Positions 44,627 to 51,759 of a stretch of 64,000 nucleotides of DNA are shown here, piece after piece (positions within the stretch are counted from its first letter, which is position 1; each line of letters starts with the position of its first letter). Where the stretch lies: NCBI RefSeq assembly GCF_900105055.1, contig NZ_FNTA01000004.1:5673501-5737500 (forward strand). Direction: 5' to 3'. Position numbers and translations under genes: made by a program. Below the pieces are notes generated by a model. It made no database searches. It saw nothing but the letters and a program-made list of their open reading frames with translations, and was not told the origin of the DNA. This stretch comes from Amycolatopsis lurida. Lineage in GTDB: Bacteria > Actinomycetota > Actinomycetes > Mycobacteriales > Pseudonocardiaceae.

Positions 44627-45403
44627 GTGGCGAGAAAAGACGGCAGGAACGACGACCAGCTTCGCGACATCAAGATCACCCGCGGCTTCCAGCGGTGGCC
44701 CGCGGGCTCGGTGTTGATCGAATTCGGCGACACCCGGGTGCTGTGCGCGGCGAGCGTCACCGAAGGCGTCCCCCGCTGGCGGGCCGGTTCCGGCCTCGGC
44801 TGGGTCACCGCCGAGTACGCGATGCTGCCGTCGGCGACCAACACCCGTAGCGACCGCGAATCCATCAAGGGCCGCGTCGGCGGCCGCACCCACGAGATCT
44901 CCCGGCTGATCGGCCGGTCCCTGCGCGCCTGCATCGACCTGGCGGCGCTGGGAGAGAACACGATCGTCATCGACTGCGACGTCATCCAGGCCGACGGTGG
45001 CACCCGCACGGCCGCGGTGACCGGCGGTTATGTCGCGCTCGCCGACGCCGTCACCTGGCTCGGCGCGGCGGGCCGCCTCGCCGACCCGCAGCCGCTTTCG
45101 TCTTCGGTGGCCGCGGTGAGCGTCGGCGTCGTCGACGGCCGGGTGCGCCTCGACCTGCCTTACGAGGAGGACTCGCGCGCGGAGGTCGACATGAACGTCG
45201 TCGCCACCGACACGGGCACCCTGATCGAGGTACAGGGCACCGGCGAGGGCGCCACCTTCGCGCGGTCCACTTTGGACACCATGCTGGACATGGCGCTCGC
45301 GGGCTGTGAGGAACTGACGCGGTTGCAGACCGAGGCGCTCGCGTTGCCGTACCCCGGCGAACTGCCCGAGCCGCGTCCGGACAAGAAGAAGGGCGCGAAG
45401 TGA
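44627..45403 (+). CDS. rph: Ribonuclease PH
   Basis: A 258-residue phosphorolytic 3'-5' exoribonuclease that trims tRNA 3' ends. Segments [50 protein letters not shown] and [15 protein letters not shown] are typical, with Arg and Asp residues for phosphate and metal. GTG 44627 aligns with the mycobacterial start; GTG 44618 would add three residues. It overlaps rdgB by four bases. Confidence 0.95.
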
Positions 45404-46005
45404 CCAAGCTGCTCCTCGCCACCCGCAACGCGAAGAAGCTGGGTGAACTCCGGCGCATCCTCATCGCCGAAGGGATCGAAGGCGTCGAGGTCATCGGCCT
45501 CGCCGACGTCCCCGAGTTCCCCGAAGCGCCCGAAACCGCTCCGGACTTCGAAGGCAACGCGCTCGCCAAGGCCCAGGACGCGGCCGCCGCGACCGGCCTC
45601 CCGGCGATCGCCGACGATTCGGGCATCGCCGTCGACGCGCTCAACGGCATGCCGGGCGTGCTTTCGGCGCGCTGGTCGGGCAAGCACGGAGACGACGAGG
45701 CGAACCTGGATCTCGTGCTGGCGCAGCTGTCCGACACACCCGACGAGCGCATGGGCGCCGCTTTCGTCTGCGCGGCCGCGTTGGTCGTGCCCGGCGGTGA
45801 CGAAACCGTGGTGCGTGGCGAATGGCGCGGCTCGCTGATCCGGGAACGCCGTGGTACCAACGGATTCGGCTACGATCCGATCTTCGTGCCCGAGGGCGGG
45901 ACGCGGACTTCCGCGGAGCTGGAGCCGTCCGAAAAGGACGAAGCTTCGCACCGGGGGAAGGCGCTGCGGGCATTGGTGGGAGAGCTGCGCAAGCTGGCGG
46001 GGTGA
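45400..46005 (+). CDS. rdgB: dITP/XTP pyrophosphatase RdgB (Ham1)
   Basis: A 201-residue house-cleaning pyrophosphatase that removes dITP, ITP and [21 protein letters not shown] and [22 protein letters not shown] hold the phosphate- and base-binding residues, and [15 protein letters not shown] is the second signature. GTG 45400 overlaps rph (GTGA). It closes the conserved clpS-rdgB block; a hairpin begins five bases after the stop. Confidence 0.95.
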
Positions 46006-46009
46006 GTTG

Positions 46010-46054
46010 GTCGTGAGTGTGATTCGGGGTGAAGCCCGAATCACCACTCACGAC
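46010..46054. repeat. Inverted repeat between rdgB and the NACHT gene
   Basis: GTCGTGAGTG-TGATTCGGG (46010-46028) pairs with 46035-46054 with one bulged base and a six-base loop. TCGTGAGTG is shared with the element behind cysM. It lies exactly between two convergent stop codons (46005 and 46057) and has no T-tract. Confidence 0.88.
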
Positions 46055-46056
46055 GG

Positions 46057-49000
46057 CTAGAAGAACTTCACGTGGGGCCCGAGTTCGTCGAGTCCGACAA
46101 TGCGGGCTTCTGGTCGTGCGCGCAGGCTGATGTCGAGATCCGCCAACGGACGGACGTCCACGGCGTCTCCCTCGTTCGCGTAGATCAAGAAGGTCTTCAG
46201 CGTCGGGTGCGAGGCCAGCGGGCTGAGGTCGCTGAGCGTGCACGACAACAGACTGAGTGACGTCAGCGGGAGATGGGCCAGGGGGGCCAAATCCGTCATG
46301 TCGGCGGAGTCCACCGAAAGGTACATCAGGCCGGGGAATGTCTCGGCGATCAACTGTGCGGTGATTCCGGTTTTCAAGTCGCTGTAGAGGCTCAGCTGGG
46401 TGATTCCGGGCATCGGTGGTGTAGCGGCCATCGTGCGAGGAGAACACTCCCACATGCGGAGTCTCGTCAGCGAGGTCATCGCGGCCAGTGCCTCGAGACT
46501 TTTGATCGACTCCAAGTGATCGAGCGTCAGAGTACGTACCTGCTCAAGGCGGCCGAGTGCTTCCAGGCCTCGCCACGGCGAGGACCGCAAGAAGGCCATT
46601 TCCTTGAGCGCTGCCAAGGATTTCAGAGCTTGCAGACCGGTGTACTTCTTGGCGAAGAAAAGTCTGACCTCCGTCAACGCCGGATGGTCGGTCAGGGTGG
46701 TTACGTCCACGACAACGTTCCCGCCGAAGCTCATCTCGAGCGTCTGGAGTGCGGGCACACCTGAGAGCAAGCCGAGGTCGGGCTGTTTCTCGGAGCTGGG
46801 GAGCCTGACGGACAAAGCGTCAAGATGCCGAAGCCGGTCCACATAGGGCAACAGCCTGCCGGCGTTGACTTCGAACTTGCCGTTCTGCAAAGGAGAATCG
46901 GCTAGGACTTCATCGGCGAAGCGTCCCGGATCGAAGTACTGCCAAGCCTCACTGAGCTGCTTTTGGACCTTCGGCCGGGGATCCTGAGCGAAGTTGCGCA
47001 GAAGCGGCAGAGCGTCATCGCCCGCCGTGAGTGTGGTCGCCCGGACGGTCGCGGCGGCGGCGGCCTCGCTGAGCCCGTCGGTGGTTTCCGGGAGATAGCG
47101 TAAGAGCCGGGGGCCGACCGACGCCAGGGACTGGGTTTCGCGAAGGTCTCGCGGTGGGACGAGATGCTCCCGGATGTTCTGCTCGACTCGTTTGATCACG
47201 GCCGGATCGATGTTGCTGACCGTTTCCAGGCAGGCCGCCGCGAGCAGGCGTAAGCGGCGGGTGTGCTGCGGTTCCGCGTCGGCACGGTCGAGAATCTCCG
47301 TAAGCAGCTTGTCGGCCTGATGGTGCTTCGCGTGGCCGCAGGCCATGATCACGGTCTCTCGCCAGGTGTCCCGATGCGCGTTCGCGATCAGGGTGTCCAG
47401 ATAGCGTGCGTCGGTGGCTTCGCTCGCGGCGAGGAACTCCTGGAAGGTCCGGTGCACGAAGTCCACCCGGCCACTTACCGGCTCTCGCAGCACTCCGCTG
47501 CGTTCGAGGAGATGGTTCAGCACTTCTTCCGCGTCGTGGTCGACGTGCGGTATCCAGCCCAGCCGATAGGCGATGTGCTCCAAGACTTCGTCCTTCGGCA
47601 GTTCGACCTTGCCGCTGGAGGTGAGCCGCCAGGCCAGATGTCCGAGCAGGATCAGTTTCTGCTGTTCGGTGAGCAGGACGGTGATGCTGCGCGCGGTGTC
47701 GCGCAGGTGCAGCAGCATCGACAACGCTTTGCGGTACAGGTCCATCCGGTCACGCGGCAATTCGGAACGGTGTGCCCAGTTCAACGCGCACAGCATCGAG
47801 CAGAGCAATGGGCTCGAGGCCAGCGTGCGCAGATGCGGGCGGTTGTTCAGCTGACTCAGCAGTCGTCGCCGGGCATCGTCGAGATCTTCTTCGGGGCGCA
47901 CGGAAACCGCGGCCTCATGCCACTTGTCGACGAGCGCGTGGATGTCGGTCGAGCTCATCGGTTCCAGCAGAACAGAGCCGAAACCTTCCTGGTAAAGCCA
48001 CCGCTGATCGGCCGCCGCGCTCCGGGAGGTGACGACGAAACGTGCTTCCGGATAGGTCAGCCCGAGTTCGTGGAGCCAGTCCTTGACCTTCCGGCGGCGT
48101 GGTGCTTCGACCTCGTCGACGCCGTCGACCAGGATCATCGCCTTTCCGCTTCGCAATACACGGTCCGCCCAGTTCGCGGGTGCCCGTCCGGCGAGTGTGG
48201 GCGCGGCGTGCGCAACGAAATGCTCGGCGCCGGGGAGATCGCCGGAGGCGAAACTCCGCAGCCGGATCGGGAACGGGACGAATCCGTTCCATGTCGACAG
48301 CTTTCCGGTGAACCGGTCGCCCGCCGCGCCGATCGCGAGCCAGTTCAACAGGGTGGTCTTACCGGAACCCGCTTCGCCGCGGACCAGCGTCCGGTGCTCT
48401 TCCCCGATCGCGCTTTCCGCCCGCATGGTCGTCCCGTCGCGGCGGTGGCCGGCGTGTTTCGCGAACCAGGCCTTCGGCAGGTCGTCCCCGCGCGAGCTTT
48501 CCGAGGAGACGGAGAGGCTGAGGTACGCGACTGTCAGCGGTAGCGTCGGCTGATCGTCCTTGGTCAGCCCGAGCAGGTCGAGCCTGTCCAGTTTGCGGGA
48601 GAGCAGGCTCAGGTACTCCGCTCGGAACTCCGCGTCGTGATCGGTTCCCGCCGGTGCGGTGAGGCTCGTCTTCGGGATCCGCGCGAGGAGCTGGTCCAGC
48701 TGGTCCGATTGCCGGGTCAGCCGTCCCAAGATCTCGGCGAGTGCCGACGGCTGGAACGACGGCAGATGCCGCACCACCATCACCAGATGACGGCACGCCT
48801 GATCCAGGGTCAGTTCGTACAGATTCGCCGCCCGCTCGGCGAGCATGGCCGAGCGGGCCGGGAACTGTTCGCGGACGCGCCGGGCCAGAAGTTCTGGGTC
48901 GGCGTCATCCGCCAGGAGTGCTTCATCGGAGAGATCGACTTTGCCGAGTGTGTCCTCGACGGCGAGGAACGCCGCGGTGATCTCGTTTTCGGGCAGCGAT

Positions 49001-49233
49001 GAGAAGCGCCCGGCGAGAATCGGCTTCAGCTCTTCGGCCACTTGCAGGCCGATCGTCTCCACCAGGTTCTCGAGCTTGCGTTTCTCCAGCGGTCCTTTGA
49101 GCTCGTCCGCCGCCAGCTCGGCGAGGCTCGACTCGCGTTCGGTCTTCTTCCGACGCCGCTGCAGCCACGACTTCGCCGCGTGCATGGCGATAGTGCCGCC
49201 CAGTTTGAGTGCGGGTCCCTCCAGCCCCGTCAT
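46057..49233 (-). CDS. NACHT-domain NTPase with leucine-rich repeats (bacterial NLR-like)
   Basis: A 1058-residue STAND ATPase. Residues 1-270 are mostly helical with no known fold that I recognise. The NACHT domain has Walker A GEAGSGKTT (286-294, Lys292), Walker B MILVDGVDEV (366-375) and the sensor FVVTSR (399-404); VHRTFQEFLAA (593-603) is the conserved winged-helix tail. A helical stretch follows, and residues about 800-1035 hold irregular leucine-rich repeats (LTEVRLFF, VRTLTLDHL, ITQLSLYS, LTSLSLLS). This is the architecture of bacterial NLR-like anti-phage proteins. No membrane segment is seen. It starts two bases after the bcp stop. At least two rare TTA codons (Leu661, Leu711) suggest a foreign origin or bldA control. 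Confidence 0.85.
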   Translation of the reverse strand: MTGLEGPALKLGGTIAMHAAKSWLQRRRKKTERESSLAELAADELKGPLEKRKLENLVETIGLQVAEELKPILAGRFSSLPENEITAAFLAVEDTLGKVDLSDEALLADDADPELLARRVREQFPARSAMLAERAANLYELTLDQACRHLVMVVRHLPSFQPSALAEILGRLTRQSDQLDQLLARIPKTSLTAPAGTDHDAEFRAEYLSLLSRKLDRLDLLGLTKDDQPTLPLTVAYLSLSVSSESSRGDDLPKAWFAKHAGHRRDGTTMRAESAIGEEHRTLVRGEAGSGKTTLLNWLAIGAAGDRFTGKLSTWNGFVPFPIRLRSFASGDLPGAEHFVAHAAPTLAGRAPANWADRVLRSGKAMILVDGVDEVEAPRRRKVKDWLHELGLTYPEARFVVTSRSAAADQRWLYQEGFGSVLLEPMSSTDIHALVDKWHEAAVSVRPEEDLDDARRRLLSQLNNRPHLRTLASSPLLCSMLCALNWAHRSELPRDRMDLYRKALSMLLHLRDTARSITVLLTEQQKLILLGHLAWRLTSSGKVELPKDEVLEHIAYRLGWIPHVDHDAEEVLNHLLERSGVLREPVSGRVDFVHRTFQEFLAASEATDARYLDTLIANAHRDTWRETVIMACGHAKHHQADKLLTEILDRADAEPQHTRRLRLLAAACLETVSNIDPAVIKRVEQNIREHLVPPRDLRETQSLASVGPRLLRYLPETTDGLSEAAAAATVRATTLTAGDDALPLLRNFAQDPRPKVQKQLSEAWQYFDPGRFADEVLADSPLQNGKFEVNAGRLLPYVDRLRHLDALSVRLPSSEKQPDLGLLSGVPALQTLEMSFGGNVVVDVTTLTDHPALTEVRLFFAKKYTGLQALKSLAALKEMAFLRSSPWRGLEALGRLEQVRTLTLDHLESIKSLEALAAMTSLTRLRMWECSPRTMAATPPMPGITQLSLYSDLKTGITAQLIAETFPGLMYLSVDSADMTDLAPLAHLPLTSLSLLSCTLSDLSPLASHPTLKTFLIYANEGDAVDVRPLADLDISLRARPEARIVGLDELGPHVKFF

Positions 49234-49235
49234 CG

Positions 49236-49712
49236 TCAGGACGCCAGGTCGAGGTCCCGCAACAGCTTCGCGACGTGCCCCGTGGCGCGCACGTTGTACT
49301 GCGCCACGGCGATCTTGCCCTCGGGGTCGACGACGAACGTCGAGCGGATGACGCCTTCGTAGACCTTGCCGTAGTTCTTCTTCTCGCCGAAGGCGCTGTA
49401 CGCCTTGAGAACGGTCTTCTCCGTGTCGGACAGCAGCGGGAAGGTCAGCCCTTCCGCCTCGACGAACTTCGCGAGCTTCGCGGGCTTGTCGGGCGAGATG
49501 CCGAGCACCTGGTAGCCGGCGTCGTTGAGCTGCGCGAGGCTGTCCCGGAAGTCGCAAGCCTGCTTCGTGCAGCCCGGCGTGCCGGCGTTCGGGTAGAAGT
49601 ACACGACGACCGACTTGCCGCGGAAGTCGCTGAGCTTGACGTCGTTGCCCTCACTGTCGGGGAGGGTGAAGTCGGGCGCTTTGTCGCCGGGGGAAAGTCG
49701 CTGCTCGGTCAT
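49236..49712 (-). CDS. bcp: Thioredoxin-dependent thiol peroxidase Bcp (PrxQ)
   Basis: A 158-residue atypical 2-Cys peroxiredoxin. The peroxidatic Cys48 and resolving Cys53 lie in [12 protein letters not shown]. It reduces peroxides with thioredoxin as donor in the cytoplasm. ATG 49712 (MTEQRL) is preferred over an in-frame codon at 49721. The NACHT-LRR gene begins two bases behind its stop, so both are very likely on one transcript. Confidence 0.94.
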
Positions 49713-49739
49713 GACGCACACGGTAGCGAATCGGCGGCG

Positions 49740-50285
49740 TCAGACCTTTCCGCAGTACTTCGCGGCGACAGGCTCCGAGGGACTGGGCCGCACCTGCAGG
49801 CGCAGCCTCACCGGCCTGTCCGGAACGGCGAAGGCGAGGTTCAGCTGGACCGACCGGCCGGGAGCCACGTCCTTGCCCGCGTCCGCGATGCCGTTGTAGC
49901 CCTGGACCGGGTCGACGACCTGTTTGACGGCGGAGGTCTCTCCGTCGACCTCGCCCGTCACGGCCAGGCCGGAGAGCCGGTAGGTGCCCTCGCCCGCGTT
50001 CGTCACTTCGATGCCGAAGGCCACCGCGCGCGGGCTCTGCGGGTACGCCGACGCGCTGGGGCGGAACGCTTTCGGCGCGGACACGGAGATCGTGACCCCG
50101 GTCGCGAACCGGTGCGGGGCACCGAAGGCGAGGTCGCCTTCCGCGTGCGTCGCGGCCAAGCCCTGCGCCGGAGCGTCCGCGCCGAGCACGGCGGCCCCTT
50201 TTTCCGGTGCCGGAACCCCGCACGCGGTCGCCAGCAGCAACGAGCAGGTGGCGATCAAGAGCTTCGGGGTGCGCGGGGGCGCCAT
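49740..50285 (-). CDS. DUF4352-like lipoprotein
   Basis: A 181-residue exported lipoprotein. The signal is basic (MAPPRTPK), hydrophobic (LLIATCSLLLATAC) and ends in a lipobox-like LATAC before GVPAPEK. The mature part is an immunoglobulin-like beta domain (AVAFGIEVTNAGEGTYRLSG) of the DUF4352/TRAPP type. The function is unknown. It lies 27 bp upstream of bcp on the same strand. Confidence 0.7.
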   Translation of the reverse strand: MAPPRTPKLLIATCSLLLATACGVPAPEKGAAVLGADAPAQGLAATHAEGDLAFGAPHRFATGVTISVSAPKAFRPSASAYPQSPRAVAFGIEVTNAGEGTYRLSGLAVTGEVDGETSAVKQVVDPVQGYNGIADAGKDVAPGRSVQLNLAFAVPDRPVRLRLQVRPSPSEPVAAKYCGKV

Positions 50286-50721: not shown

Positions 50722-50769
50722 CAAAAGGGCGAATCGGGCGCACCGGCTATCGCCCACTAGGCCCTTTTG
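50722..50769. repeat. Nested inverted repeat upstream of the GH25 gene
   Basis: CAAAAGGGC (50722-50730) pairs with GCCCTTTTG (50761-50769), and inside it GGGCG (50736-50740) pairs with CGCCC (50751-50755). The hairpin ends 27 bases before the GH25 start, so it could be an operator or a leader structure. Its A/T-rich core contrasts with the surroundings. Confidence 0.55.
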
Positions 50770-50796
50770 TCCAACTGGTTCACCCGCCAGGCTGTA

Positions 50797-51759
50797 ATGA
50801 TGGCGCTGGGAATAGATATCTACAGTCGCTTCCAATCCGTTACCAATTGGCAGGCCGTCAAGGATCATGGCGTGACCTTCGTCTTCGTCAAGCTCACGGA
50901 CGGCGGTGGCCTGCCGAACGGCGGGCGCAACACCGGCGACGCGCTGGTGGCGGGCGCGAGATCCGTGGGAATCCCGGTGGGCGGCTATCACTTCGCTCAG
51001 GCGAGCCCCTCGCCCGAGGCGCAGGCCGACGTGTTGATCGCGGAGGTCCGGCGGCTCGGGGCGACCGGCTGCGTCCCGATGCTCGACCTCGAGGACAATC
51101 CGCCGGGTTCGGGGGCGCCGAACATCCCCGACGGGCGCAAGCGGGACTTCTCGATCAGGTTCTGCAACCGCGTGGCGGGACACGGCTTCCGCCCCGGGAT
51201 CTACATGAACAACTCACTCGCCAAGATGCTGCGCCCCGACCGGTTCGGCGTACGGGACCTCGTCATCTGGATCGCGCGCTACGGCGCCAGACCCGATGCC
51301 GCGGCGGGCCACTACGACGTGCATCAGTACTCGGACGCCGGCCGAGTCCCCGGTATCCGCGCGAGCAGTGTCGACCTCAACGAGTCCTACACGAACGCCC
51401 ACTTGACCGGCGGCGGCGCCGCCCCGAAACGGAAGGCGACGACAGAACTCATGGAACGCAGAACCATTCCGGCCAGCATGGACACCACGTCGGTGCGGCT
51501 GCTGCTTTCGGGCAGCGAGACGGCCGCGATCATCGTGCGGCCGCGTATCGACGGCGACGGCATCACCGACTCGCCTGTCTACCAGGGGAACATCTACGCC
51601 TGGGGGAGCGACAAAGTCGGCATCGGCTACAACCCGATGGATCAGCCAGGGTTCGTCTCCAAGACGGTCTCGCACCGGCGCTACCGGCTGCCCGGCGCGG
51701 TGTGGGCCGACTTCGAGTACAGCTCGGCCGTGGACTTCGAGATCGACATCGTCGGCTGA
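50797..51759 (+). CDS. GH25-family muramidase-like protein without a signal peptide
   Basis: A 320-residue protein. Residues 4-200 form a GH25 lysozyme domain: ALGIDIYSRFQSVTNW, then VTFVFVKLTDG, YHFAQASPSP and MLDLEDN, which carries the catalytic Asp-x-Glu pair. The C-terminal 120 residues (from about 205) are a separate beta-rich domain that I do not recognise (TSVRLLLSGS, RYRLPGAVWADFEYSSAVDFEI). No signal peptide or membrane segment is visible, unlike secreted lysozymes, so it may be released by lysis, as phage endolysins are, or act on another glycan. ATG 50797 or 50800 could be the start. Confidence 0.8.
   Translation: MMALGIDIYSRFQSVTNWQAVKDHGVTFVFVKLTDGGGLPNGGRNTGDALVAGARSVGIPVGGYHFAQASPSPEAQADVLIAEVRRLGATGCVPMLDLEDNPPGSGAPNIPDGRKRDFSIRFCNRVAGHGFRPGIYMNNSLAKMLRPDRFGVRDLVIWIARYGARPDAAAGHYDVHQYSDAGRVPGIRASSVDLNESYTNAHLTGGGAAPKRKATTELMERRTIPASMDTTSVRLLLSGSETAAIIVRPRIDGDGITDSPVYQGNIYAWGSDKVGIGYNPMDQPGFVSKTVSHRRYRLPGAVWADFEYSSAVDFEIDIVG

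Follow-up and report, generated by a model that had tools for sequence, protein, structure and literature searches.

What kind of protein is encoded directly behind the peroxiredoxin gene bcp of Amycolatopsis lurida, and are the two genes functionally connected? The window analysed here is a stretch of 64,000 nucleotides (contig NZ_FNTA01000004.1, positions 5,673,501 to 5,737,500), in which a first-pass annotation, made from the sequence alone, had singled out a gene for a NACHT ATPase with C-terminal leucine-rich repeats (LRRs), whose start lies two bases beyond the bcp stop. It was taken for a likely defence protein of the nucleotide-binding, leucine-rich repeat receptor (NLR) type, possibly coupled to oxidative state through bcp. 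The open reading frame (ORF), the Pfam family PF05729, matches to solved LRR proteins and an AlphaFold2 model bear out the 1058-residue product with its NACHT core and C-terminal repeats, and the ORF coordinates agree with the 2-base junction (Table 1). We consider it to be a chromosomally resident bacterial NLR that works as a single protein, probably sensing invaders and bringing about cell death, and give this reading a probability of about 0.62.

The NLR-type architecture is strongly supported, comprising NNH1, NACHT and LRR regions, intact ATPase motifs and an NLR-like predicted fold. Whilst the N-terminal 270 residues had initially been thought to match no nameable effector, residues 8–184 correspond to Pfam family PF22733, 'NACHT N-terminal Helical domain 1' or NNH1 (E-value 3.1e-50; 171.1 bits against a curated cut-off of 27; profile positions 1–177 of 177); that said, we know of no activity for this domain, and a search of one literature collection returned no paper with the accession PF22733 or the words 'NACHT N-terminal helical'. 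By sequence the protein is a member of the actinomycete NNH1 (PF22733)-NACHT proteins (171 bits versus 27), from which we found no difference. The NACHT core scores 67.1 bits (E-value 2.2e-18; curated cut-off 26.7). In an alignment of 40 rows, made up of the query and relatives 34–88 % identical that were picked for matching from the N-terminus, both domains are present in every row, and Walker A, Walker B (D370, G371, D373 and E374) and the winged-helix residues H594, F597 and E599 are invariant throughout. Pfam LRR_4 matches the C-terminus weakly (E-value 0.004, under its cut-off), whilst solved LRR proteins match parts of residues 795–1034 (a Roco protein at 3e-13 and internalins at 4e-11 to 7e-9), and AlphaFold2 models the LRR with per-residue confidence (pLDDT) mostly >90 and strands from 829 to 1018. 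By structure, the best matches over residues ∼190–1058 are animal NOD2, NLRC4 and NLRP3. In these, NACHT, winged helix and LRR follow one another as they do here, but identity with the protein is only 14–20 %, and the LRR of the latter is internalin-like and bacterial. Animal NLRs carry a CARD or PYD where NNH1 stands here.

Work by Kibby in 2023, to which Conte 2025 refers, reportedly deals with bacterial NLRs, or bNACHT proteins. In the sections of Conte 2025 (PMC12169576) drawn on here, bacterial frames with NACHT plus leucine-rich repeats are termed bona fide bacterial NLRs, and bacterial NACHT proteins are described as defending against phage. Our protein resembles them in its effector–NACHT–sensor order and in having NACHT and LRR in one frame, but differs from the tested bNACHT25 and bNACHT32 (nuclease plus NCH1) and bNACHT02 and bNACHT12 (SNaCT domain), as they appear in those sections, in its NNH1 and LRR, its actinomycete host and its housekeeping surroundings. 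In architecture the protein belongs to this class, with NNH1 as its putative output domain; its resident setting is unusual. The CARD-NLR gasdermin systems, as outlined in part of PMC13236601, likewise have an NLR-like ATPase with repeats, but are multi-gene and include peptidases, unlike this locus, where no trypsin-like or caspase-like protein was found among ten neighbour proteins scanned with Pfam and/or NCBIfam. No Avs family was listed up to an E-value of 1 in a PADLOC scan, which may miss distant kinship.

The gene is patchily retained at a recurrent chromosomal place, the interval between bcp and rdgB. Among 80 genomes of the genus, a relative at an E-value of 1e-120 was found in 35 and an orthologue of ≥ 53 % identity in 23, the next match having ≤ 42 %. 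Directly upstream of 20 of the 23 orthologues, on the same strand, lies bcp; two (L128 and L129) have rdgB downstream and no bcp within 1.5 kb, nor is there one within 6 kb in L147, an identical named copy of L129. A further one (L006) has neither gene within 1.5 kb, and L136 has an internal stop by the search tool's count. When the bcp–rdgB interval was compared across 36 genomes of the genus, it held a NACHT gene in 10, was ≤ 375 bases in 13 and exceeded this length in the remaining 13, usually containing other genes; the NACHT gene is thus missing from 26 of 36 intervals with intact flanks, and the block orf181-bcp-rdgB-rph-mbl-murI is largely conserved regardless. A gene invariant and syntenic in all relatives, which the first-pass annotation had held to speak against its proposal, is therefore not what we see: it is mostly syntenic where present, with orthologues in 23 of 80 genomes only. 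In a scan of named genomes, confined to the best 79 of at least 496 confirmed loci and hence yielding no rate, bcp and/or rdgB was in reach at 23 loci, from Amycolatopsis, Prauserella, Saccharothrix, Kutzneria, Lentzea, Solihabitans and Saccharopolyspora. At these, bcp (22) was always on the NACHT strand and rdgB (23) always convergent; further loci from the same family of genera (Umezawaea, Allokutzneria, Crossiella, Kibdelosporangium and one Saccharothrix) and every Streptomyces locus among the 79 lay elsewhere. Among other occupants of the interval, six NACHT-less ones (L100, L104, L105, L109, L110 and L112) contain a sensor kinase gene paired with one for a response regulator, oriented towards bcp (by eye), and one Amycolatopsis genome (G021; L097:3920-4684) has a DddA-like deaminase gene (PF14428, E-value 2.9e-28).

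Distances between NACHT genes track those of bcp+rdgB+rph (Pearson 0.85, Mantel p 0.001, 36 at-locus genes; 0.91 in 20 Amycolatopsis; 0.45, p 0.011, in nine close ones), and therefore the gene appears to have descended largely at this position, though with some local discord, evolving ∼3 times faster than these neighbours. A single clade of at-locus genes was rejected by the approximately unbiased test (p 6e-5; 21 genes, a quick tree and a hypothesis set after earlier trees), and the Saccharopolyspora and Solihabitans copies fall in other NNH1-NACHT lineages; either the interval received such a gene on more than one occasion, or it formerly contained several copies. Loss is indicated in genome G024, where a short interval retains, right after bcp, 50 bases of a NACHT start (96 % identical, E-value 4e-19; a reversed control matched the same stretch at 4e-16, some database genes probably being misoriented). 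No relic was counted in the other 25 of the 26 NACHT-less intervals, seven of which gave matches at E-values up to 0.05, all like controls but for G027; this one (26 bases, 2e-5, shuffled best 9e-4) was set aside as a Walker A stretch deep in a 6.3-kb interval. A mobile origin was likewise rejected: of 26 plasmid records that matched at 1e-20, not one covered 80 % of the query (the best had 36 % identity across 71 % of it), and two phage records match NACHT weakly. Tandem NNH1-NACHT genes occur in two genomes of one genus (L067 in G142, with an in-frame stop, and L068 in G179), assigned to Crossiella by L162, an identical named copy of L068.

Divergence within the protein is highest in the LRR. 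The ratio of non-synonymous to synonymous divergence (dN/dS) in the close group is 0.37–0.53 there versus 0.03–0.17 in the remaining domains. We then divided the LRR into site classes, taking concave strand positions from the predicted register and pooling counts within three groups of 5, 11 and 3 genes. In these groups dN/dS was 0.54, 0.61 and 0.80, respectively, at the predicted concave positions, as compared with 0.37–0.45 at other LRR positions, 0.27–0.35 at strand leucines and 0.09–0.25 in other domains. Amino-acid variation at concave positions exceeded that at random LRR positions (p 0.0002, 0.0002 and 0.016), and fell low once the register was shifted by ten residues. Under a codon model, omega was 0.18–0.34 for concave positions, 0.13–0.27 across the remaining LRR positions and 0.02–0.085 elsewhere. 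This pattern fits that expected of a ligand-reading face.

As for NNH1, the genome holds a single copy and six NACHT matches above cut-off. Matches occur in 17 of 246 genomes of the class, 15 above cut-off, and all 14 full-length hits fetched from outside the own genome (three further ones were left out) continue into NACHT, although the open frame of one, L229, is just 351 aa; five weak or partial hits (L234–L238) have no NACHT nearby. Given the single copy and the 14 of 14 continuing into NACHT, a role as adaptor for a second NNH1 protein was rejected, and NNH1 looks, judging from sequence, like a built-in output domain rather than a shared adaptor. In this it appears unlike the effector-associated domains, which the accessible parts of Kaur and colleagues (PMC7159879, PMC8195603) present as shared adaptors. 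Its N-terminal helix has conserved small residues, an invariant W23 and G/A-rich positions 12, 16, 19 and 20; its amphipathicity is unremarkable (moment 0.33 in the query).

Taken together, presence/absence among close relatives and LRR-specific divergence support the defence use indirectly, so that the proposed NLR-type defence protein stands firmly as to architecture and more tentatively as to function. At rest, NACHT would hold ADP with the LRR folded over it. The LRR would read an invader protein, most likely of phage, or a host protein altered by the invader; binding would lead to nucleotide exchange in NACHT and assembly of a ring, in which clustered NNH1 helical domains, themselves the output and not adaptors for a separate partner, may stop or kill the cell and spare kin in the mycelium. 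Several observations weigh against this reading. PADLOC gives no real match (best E-value 0.012), the neighbours are housekeeping genes with no defence island, the model has low confidence in NNH1, and a PDB profile search found no clear solved relative for it (best E-value 0.007). In no site class of the three groups does the codon model give omega >1 (LRR 0.13–0.34), synonymous divergence is raised in the LRR too, omega at concave positions of the 11-gene group (0.184) is not above that of other LRR positions (0.206), and in the 3-gene group variation peaks 2–5 residues upstream of the assigned concave register. Because omega never exceeds 1, and concave positions do not stand above the rest of the LRR in the 11-gene group, relaxed constraint is an alternative source of the LRR divergence that has to be kept in mind.

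Bacterial STAND (signal transduction ATPases with numerous domains) proteins can also be ordinary regulators, and the gene could accordingly encode a switch for the organism's own development or metabolism, with an LRR that drifts alongside a fast-changing self ligand. The old place among housekeeping genes and the distances that follow theirs would suit such a role, which we nevertheless think unlikely, as 26 of 36 genomes do without the gene between intact flanks and none of the Pfam matches is to a DNA-binding output domain. Just as improbable, in our estimation, is that the same machine answers a trigger other than phage, such as plasmids, conjugation, gene-transfer agents or self/non-self mycelial contact. 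Variation on the concave LRR face fits any hostile or polymorphic ligand, and a bacterial CARD-NLR-like system is reported, in the part of PMC13236601 cited above, to control lysis for gene-transfer agents; nothing in our data, however, is specific to a non-phage trigger. Within the preferred reading of a cell-death NLR, a bolder version, which we hold to be doubtful though somewhat less so than these two, is that NNH1 is a new self-acting output whose N-terminal helix, freed on ring assembly, damages the membrane like the helices of plant coiled-coil (CC) NLRs, and that the concave LRR binds a fast-changing invader protein directly.

The suggestion that Bcp acts jointly with the NLR, with oxidative state setting the sensor, is not supported, and we judge it very improbable. 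Adjacency is indeed conserved among orthologues (20 of 23), unrelated NNH1-NACHT lineages occupy the interval, and among 38 distinct at-locus genes preceded by bcp, 17, the studied gene included, have a spacer of ≤ 22 bases; the 2-base junction, in which no Shine-Dalgarno was found, is common to the five closest genes. However, bcp is present in all 36 genus genomes searched and has a NACHT gene at its interval in 10, the surrounding block is kept anyway, and some orthologues have no bcp nearby, as described above. Moreover, spacers vary, measuring 66–87 bases in seven (length taken to the alignment start) and >90 in 14; those seven carry their own Shine-Dalgarno, often within a hairpin, and other lineages have inserted genes, namely an efflux gene of the small multidrug resistance family (PF00893) in Lentzea (L163:5595-5987) and another gene, by eye, in Kutzneria. 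We read the pairing as probable inherited gene order with read-through expression, and bcp as probably not a functional partner; a literature search, judged by titles, gave no paper on a bcp–NACHT pair. The G+C-rich spacer hairpin tends to pair the Shine-Dalgarno (L009:1412-1500, L155:5915-6003, L010:4663-4751 and L127:1415-1503). Its z was < −2 in five of seven spacers in one shuffle draw and four of seven in another (−7.3 in L009, −5.0 in L155), as against 0–27 % of control genes (six kinds with more than two starts); covariation is unsupported (unfavourable term, +0.95), and the hairpin is absent from the clade of the studied gene.

Two TTA codons, 661 and 711, are present, as remarked earlier, with none in nine neighbouring genes; a bldA-type switch was rejected, as TTA occurs in just five of 13 NACHT genes examined (this one included) and never in a shared alignment column. 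The hairpin said to flank the gene is real (−32.8 kcal/mol, z −7.4), but it lies at the 3′ end between convergent stops and resembles, by eye, hairpins in NACHT-less intervals of close relatives, and was thus dismissed as a feature of the NACHT gene; a degenerate search pattern based on one of its arms matches the genome five times, this site included. The start of bcp is GTG (49721) or ATG (49712), and orf181 has no Pfam or NCBIfam match. A glycosyl hydrolase family 25 (GH25) gene (50767-51759) near the locus is retained next to both orf181 and bcp across the 13 closest genomes, and beyond rdgB lie genes for ribonuclease PH, a cyclic-nucleotide phosphodiesterase-like protein and glutamate racemase. 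The ten neighbour proteins scanned comprised peroxiredoxin, RdgB, ribonuclease PH, metallo-hydrolase, glutamate racemase, alcohol dehydrogenase and GH25, one weak rhombosortase match and two without a match.

Table 1. Features of the NACHT-LRR locus (coordinates of the window)
Feature	Position	Strand	Basis or remark
NNH1-NACHT-LRR gene, 1058 aa	46057..49233	-	ORF with ATG start, Pfam, structure model
NNH1 domain, residues 8-184 (PF22733)	48682..49212	-	Pfam; predicted all-helical, low-to-medium model confidence
NACHT ATPase core, residues 281-441 (PF05729)	47911..48393	-	Pfam; Walker A and B intact
Helical and winged-helix part plus helices up to LRR, residues 451-785	46879..47883	-	Boundaries set by analyst
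Leucine-rich repeats, residues 786-1058, fast-evolving	46060..46878	-	Boundary set by analyst
bcp, thioredoxin-dependent peroxiredoxin, directly upstream of NACHT gene	49236..49721	-	Conserved neighbour
orf181, directly before bcp (18 bases)	49740..50285	-	Lipoprotein-like N-terminus by eye
rdgB (RdgB/HAM1 family), convergent; other border of conserved interval	45400..46005	+	Family match
Hairpin, terminator-like, between convergent stops of NACHT gene and rdgB	46010..46054		Folding

Many bacterial defence genes came to light through their position in mobile islands, whereas the surroundings of this NLR are housekeeping genes. It can be followed across seven genera, and it reveals on which part of the receptor variation concentrates. 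Its orthologous allele series is material for testing bacterial NLR recognition by LRR swaps, and the locus offers a clean handle on NNH1 as an output domain. Should the bolder version hold, actinomycete genera would possess a resistosome-like receptor encoded by a single gene, at a chromosomal site that lineages of this receptor unrelated to one another have occupied on more than one occasion.
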